Source: Planctomycetota bacterium (lineage in GTDB: Bacteria > Planctomycetota > Planctomycetia > Pirellulales > Lacipirellulaceae). From it: a stretch of 6,470 nucleotides of DNA. The notes beneath the pieces were generated by a model, which was given only the letters and a program-made list of their open reading frames with translations, was not told the DNA's origin and made no database searches. The stretch is from assembly GCA_024278035.1 (NCBI GenBank), contig JAJRUA010000120.1:1-6470 (forward strand), written 5' to 3'. The position numbers and the translations under genes were made by a program. Shown here piece after piece: positions 3,671 through 4,669 of this stretch. Within the stretch, counting starts at the first letter, position 1, and each line of letters begins with the position of its first letter.

Positions 3671-4669
3671 ATGGCTGCAACGATTTACTACGACAAAGAT
3701 GCCGATCTCAAAGCACTCGAGGGCAAGACGGTTGCGATCTTGGGTTACGGTTCGCAAGGTCATGCCCATGCGCAGAACCTTCGCGATAGTGGCGTCAAGG
3801 TGGTGGTCGGCCAACGGCCCGGAAGCGCTAACTACGATCTCGCGGTTAGCCATGGCTTCGAGCCGATGACGATCGAAGAAGCCACCAAGCAAGGCGACCT
3901 CGTCAACCTCCTTCTGCCCGACGAAGTGCAGGGCGATCTTTACCGTAACCAAATTCGCGACAACCTTGTGCCTGGCAACATCCTGATGTGCTCCCACGGG
4001 TTTAATGTCCACTTTGGGCAAGTAGAAGCTCCCGAGGGAGTCGATCTACTGCTGGTTGCGCCTAAGGGCCCTGGGCATTTGGTCCGTAGCGAATTTGAAG
4101 CGGGTGGTGGTGTTCCTAGCCTTATCGCACTGAGCGACGACGCGAGTGACGACACATTCAAAGCAGGGCTCGCCTACGCCAAAGGCATCGGTGGCACCCG
4201 TGGTGGGGTGATTCGCACGACCTTTGCGGAAGAAACCTAGACCGATTTGTTCGGCGAGCAAGCGGTGCTCTGTGGCGGAGCCGCAGCACTTGTGAAAGCC
4301 GGTTACGAAACCCTCGTCGAAGCGGGCTATCAACCCGAGATGGCTTATTTTGAATGTATGCACGAGCTCAAGTTGATTGTCGACCTTTTCTATCAGGGCG
4401 GCCTCAACTACATGCGATATAGTGTTTCAAACACTGCCGAGTACGGCGACTATGTTAGCGGCCCTCGTATCGTTACCGACGAGACCAAAGCCGAGATGAA
4501 GCGAATTTTGACCGAAATTCAAGACGGCACCTTCGCTCGCAATTGGATTCTTGAAAACAAGGCCGGAGCACCGGCATTCAAAGCGACCCGACGCCGCGAG
4601 CGCGAGCACGGAGTCGAAAAAATCGGTCGTGAACTTCGCAAGATGATGTCGTGGATCGACGACAAATAG
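3671..4669 (+). pseudogene. ilvC: Ketol-acid reductoisomerase (class I), interrupted by an in-frame TAG at codon 190
   Basis: The family converts acetolactate or acetohydroxybutyrate to the dihydroxy acids, using NADPH and Mg2+, in branched-chain amino-acid synthesis. Ignoring the stop, the frame encodes 332 residues, normal for the short class I form. The N-terminal Rossmann domain has GYGSQGHAHAQNL from residue 25, SHGFNVHF (108-115) and APKGPGHLVR (130-139). The C-terminal knotted domain has the metal ligands Asp192, Glu196, Glu228 and Glu232 in TDLFGEQ and FECMHEL. Codon 190 is TAG (4238-4240) where the family has Glu in EETETDLFGEQ. Reading resumes in the same frame with perfect family identity, so this is a point substitution, not a frameshift. 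Translation stopping there yields a 189-residue NADPH domain without any metal ligand, presumably inactive. A good AGGAG (3656-3660) lies 10 nt before the ATG, and the normal stop is also TAG. It could be a real null allele, readthrough, or a sequence error. Confidence 0.93.
4238..4240 (+). other. Premature amber codon in ilvC
   Basis: The local codons are GAA GAA ACC TAG ACC GAT TTG TTC, read E-E-T-stop-T-D-L-F. A single G-to-T change from GAG (Glu) explains it. Codons on both sides encode the conserved class I reductoisomerase sequence in one frame. ilvN and ilvC themselves end in TAG, so this genome appears to use TAG as an ordinary stop. Confidence 0.95.

Follow-up and report, generated by a model that had tools for sequence, protein, structure and literature searches.

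In-frame amber codon in the ilvC gene of a planctomycete contig: most likely a one-base error or a recently broken copy rather than a new reading of the genetic code

The window, by which the whole stretch of 6,470 bases analysed here is meant, appears to be an entire contig, and contig C42 of the assembly G000 (4,597,595 bases, 93.38% complete), on which it could be placed, appears to be a separate record of the same species. The window holds five reading frames, among them ilvN as the upstream neighbour of ilvC on the same strand, and along the whole of ilvN the sequence in G000 is identical. The frames and the parts into which ilvC is divided are as follows.

3-2909, minus strand: uvrA, running off the window's first base
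3041-3577, plus strand: ilvN, acetolactate synthase small subunit, 178 aa, with ALS_ss_C and ACT matches
3671-4669, plus strand: ilvC, a frame of 332 residues with KARI_N and KARI_C matches and a single internal stop
3671-4240, plus strand: ilvC up to the stop, a KARI_N (NADPH-binding) piece of 189 residues (P0241), with KARI_N at residues 16-179 (229.9 bits)
4238-4240, plus strand: TAG, codon 190 of ilvC, a glutamate codon in G000
4241-4669, plus strand: remainder of ilvC, not translated as the sequence stands, with residues 191-332 (D192, E196, E228 and E232 among them) and the frame's own TAG
4247-4249, plus strand: TTG, codon of residue 193, beyond Asp192, and the nearest candidate for an in-frame restart downstream of the stop
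4761-5033, minus strand: frame of 90 aa, ending in TAA, without Pfam match at 0.001
5276-6103, minus strand: frame of 275 aa, ending in TGA, without Pfam match at 0.001

No Rfam family at gathering scores and no tRNA was found in the window. Directly 3' of ilvC, a hairpin of 10 base pairs followed by Ts (4715-4740) resembles an intrinsic terminator by eye, and is absent from the five sites given by a computed scan. Further downstream lie two imperfect palindromes (6119-6176 and 6239-6332) with arms of 20 nt and 24 nt and a complementarity of 85% and 92%, respectively. A probe of 311 bases that spans both has 32 matches in G000, and partial copies are found there at 93% over window positions 6230-6312 (C21) and at 91% over 42 bases of the first palindrome (C129), which marks the two as dispersed palindromic repeats. 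At 6378-6407 there is also a perfect inverted repeat of 13 nt, AAAGCCCGGGGAT / ATCCCCGGGCTTT, which has many short matches in G000 and looks like a terminator-type or REP-like element.

Translation of 3671-4669 gives a single internal stop, the TAG at 4238-4240, which is codon 190 of 332 and lies between ...RTTFAEET and TDLFGEQ.... This confirms the earlier note, in which an amber codon had been described at this position of a class I ketol-acid reductoisomerase frame with both flanks intact and free of decay, and indeed each half keeps a strong Pfam domain match. In sequence, in domain order (KARI_N, PF07991, and KARI_C, PF01450) and in the positions of four metal ligands the gene is like other class I IlvC, but the frame halts at codon 190, and while the translated product of 189 residues contains the KARI_N domain, KARI_C is found only after the stop and not in the same open frame. 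Parts of two studies give D191, E195, E227 and E231 as the magnesium ligands of class I enzymes (PMC5940873; the same four in PMC8615647). By spacing, and with the residues checked, the equivalents here are D192, E196, E228 and E232, all past codon 190, which agrees with the earlier statement that the C-terminal domain carries all the metal ligands. As the 189-residue product lacks all four of them, it should be inactive and the allele as written should be null. Among solved structures, the intact product of G000 (P0001) has 42 distinct sequences as matches. The top one is the ketol-acid reductoisomerase 8ep7_A (residues 5-329, 470 bits), and a small number, at weak scores, are adenosylhomocysteinases.

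Across the 6,470 bases, the window differs from C42 of G000 by 15 substitutions and no indel. Four of these lie outside the five reading frames. The 11 within them are distributed over uvrA (six), ilvC (four) and the frame of 275 aa (one); of these coding changes, ten are synonymous third-position changes, none is missense, and the eleventh is the stop in ilvC. At window positions 4238-4240, G000 has a glutamate codon and its ilvC is open over 332 residues, so that a glutamate codon in a related assembly, which had been named beforehand as the sign of an assembly or sequencing error, has indeed been found. The glutamate codon in G000 alone would nevertheless not prove an error, because the 14 other differences, ten of them synonymous, look like real strain variation. 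That all differences from G000 are random errors can be rejected, as ten of 11 coding changes are synonymous and the chance of at least ten is about 6e-6. Counted over every single change that could occur in the five frames, synonymous changes make up 24.4%, missense changes 72.1% and nonsense changes 3.5%. Scaled to the ten synonymous changes found, the expectation without selection is about 29.5 missense changes and 1.4 nonsense changes, as against none and one observed. The absence of missense changes where about 29.5 are expected shows strong selection that removes nearly all protein changes, which makes the stop in ilvC out of character and thereby favours an error.

The glutamate itself is invariant among the relatives compared. 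At the position of the stop, all of the 80 loci compared, the best of 591 in genome_contigs (a collection that may omit records very near the window), have it, as had been expected for the family. The codon is GAA in 51 and GAG in 29, and Glu188, Thr191 and Asp192 are likewise present in all of these best 80 of 591. In a search of 97 genomes (G000 and 96 relatives), 91 had an ilvC match below 1e-100, four had weaker matches only and two had none, and an internal stop in ilvC was found in none of the 91. The same holds for the best 150 matches from a broader sample of the order, which overlaps the 97-genome set and in which 366 of 396 genomes match ilvC at 1e-40. Breaks of another type, artefact or real, occur in two of the 91 assemblies, both after about residue 220: ilvC of G003, from the same genus (L139, G003:C149), lacks about residues 221-275, a loss of 55 residues in frame, and that of G070, from the same order (L140, G070:C169), lacks about residues 221-236 with a change of frame. 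In G031 and G089, the gene is truncated where the contig ends or close to it. G013, G085 and G080 have a divergent KARI-like gene in addition to a normal ilvC, and G022, one of the four genomes with weaker matches only, has such a gene (35%) as its sole KARI-like match below 1e-10; the identity of these genes to P0001 is 31-40%.

The two protein pieces were also searched separately, each search scoring the 8000 candidates that share most words with the query. Among the 120 matches listed for the C-terminal piece, the same stop allele was not found, the highest identity being 90%, and among the 120 listed for the N-terminal piece only P0241, the truncated protein itself, exceeds 85%. The cluster of P0241 consists of two member sequences on one contig. 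For this truncated protein the longest contig given is 6470 bases, as long as the window, and for the intact P0001 it is 112394 bases, the length of C42. The stop-bearing pattern was found zero times in viral_contigs, where an ilvC is hardly to be expected. Two further database proteins touch the same region. P0325 (189 aa, on a contig of 5284 bases, and named partial) also ends at AEET, and P0121 (219 aa, on a contig of 941 bases) resembles a fusion of two KARI_C pieces with its junction at the conserved ETETDLFGEQAVLCGG motif; the latter may be a chimera made in assembly, at the motif that in the window contains the stop.

An in-frame TAG is the only likeness to amber recoding systems, be it by a suppressor tRNA or by pyrrolysine. 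In G000, a CTA anticodon was found in none of 45 tRNA matches (Rfam; ARAGORN assigned an anticodon to all 45, and scoring covered 150 of 158 first-look candidates), release factor RF1 is present over its family cut-off, and PylS (TIGR02367) has no match. Moreover, ilvN and ilvC both end in TAG, which was rightly held against a reassignment at the outset. Genome-wide reassignment of TAG, an amber suppressor and pyrrolysine are thus all unsupported, and so is the suppression or readthrough that had been offered as an explanation, with the proviso that these tests were made on an incomplete sister assembly whose strain has the glutamate codon and no need of suppression. Conceivably, leaky termination or a suppressor tRNA peculiar to the strain lets translation pass the amber codon and yields enough of the full-length enzyme, and the intact frame past the stop with domain matches in both halves would fit this, but given what was found in G000 it is very unlikely. 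Just as improbable is a natural population that keeps the stop in a single-copy biosynthetic gene by means of readthrough or of a suppressor tRNA encoded elsewhere in the genome of the window's strain. Even less credible is a split gene, the 189-aa piece acting together with a restarted C-terminal piece. A KARI_C frame of 140 aa does start at the TTG at 4247, six bases past the stop codon, and this piece (4247-4669) matches KARI_C positions 9-144 of 144. However, as this first start candidate is residue 193, the restarted piece would lack Asp192 just as the N-terminal piece does, and it is the equivalent Asp that links the two magnesium ions (PMC5940873).

A true loss of the enzyme should be costly, since G000 (93.38% complete) has one KARI_C match, keeps the neighbouring steps of the pathway, and shows no match to two importer families. 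A second reductoisomerase elsewhere, which had been suggested to cover the loss, was not found in G000, where the only other match is weak (31% over residues 16-80, E 3.9e-4). An ilvB is present over its family cut-off, and for ilvD (dihydroxy-acid dehydratase) two genes are over the cut-off (C21:59185-60810 and C77:98395-100002). It thus seems that the species is equipped to make branched-chain amino acids. The branched-chain uptake families Peripla_BP_6 and Branch_AA_trans have no match in G000, an absence that is not rare, as among 14 control genomes the former is over the cut-off in nine and the latter in four.

Of the three explanations set out in the earlier note, suppression or readthrough is without support in G000, and a sequence error and a recent null allele remain as close rivals, the error being slightly more likely. 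We put the probability of a one-base sequencing or consensus (assembly) error at a normal glutamate codon of the species at about one half. The short contig would then depart by one base from the species' normal codon, and the gene, if read literally, would yield an inactive NADPH-binding fragment of 189 residues. An error is favoured by the glutamate codon and the open 332-residue frame in G000, by the glutamate in all of the best 80 of 591 loci together with the lack of internal stops in the 91 genomes with ilvC, by the high cost that a null allele should have for the cell, by the window being, as it appears, a whole short contig, and by the occurrence of other ilvC breaks in two of 91 assemblies, be they artefact or real. 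Against an error speaks that the contig is otherwise clean, with no indel or missense change relative to G000 in 6,470 bases, that an error must fall on one of the 3.5% of possible single changes that are nonsense, and that the P0241 cluster may, with its second member, include an independent copy.

A real and very recent null allele is a serious candidate at somewhat below even odds. It would have arisen by one nonsense mutation, and the strain would live on branched-chain amino acids or peptides of its neighbours or represent a dead-end lineage. The window has what is expected of a young null allele, namely one disabling change in a gene that is otherwise intact on both flanks of the stop, and an intact copy in a close relative, and as the 14 other differences look like true variation, with ten synonymous changes among the 11 coding ones, the contig would thus be a real second strain with a consensus that seems good. 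The rest of the pathway is kept, however, with ilvB and ilvD in place, while neither a second reductoisomerase nor the two common importer families were found in G000 and none of the 91 relatives has an internal stop. With assumed error rates between 1e-5 and 1e-4 per base, a rough weighing of the causes gives error and null allele similar weight. For a natural bacterium, part of one study describes that nonsense changes are selected against within hosts and that C-to-A changes are raised, consistent with oxidative damage (PMC9613479), and the kind of base change, as far as that part goes, thus does not separate mutation from damage. In long-read assemblies, indel errors are described as a source of premature stops in part of another study (PMC6785717), a mechanism that is inapplicable here because the stop in the window is a substitution.

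The stop, the glutamate codon in G000 and in the relatives, and the lack of other decay are shown; that the cause is an error rather than a living allele, and that the fragment is inactive, we infer. No other single cause is as likely as an error. A real stop would amount to an ordinary young null allele, likewise a known kind, and nothing was seen that sets the stop in the window apart from an ordinary nonsense allele or an assembly sequence error, with which it shares the change of one base, the otherwise intact gene and the intact sister copy. Most likely, the stop is a one-base error or a freshly broken copy and not a new reading of the genetic code. As such, it is an ordinary case that matters little. 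It shows that where a short contig has a lone in-frame stop in a well-conserved gene, a sister assembly should be consulted before recoding is proposed. Should it be a true allele, the window would come from a planctomycete strain that has just lost the ability to synthesise valine, leucine and isoleucine, in a species that keeps the rest of the pathway.
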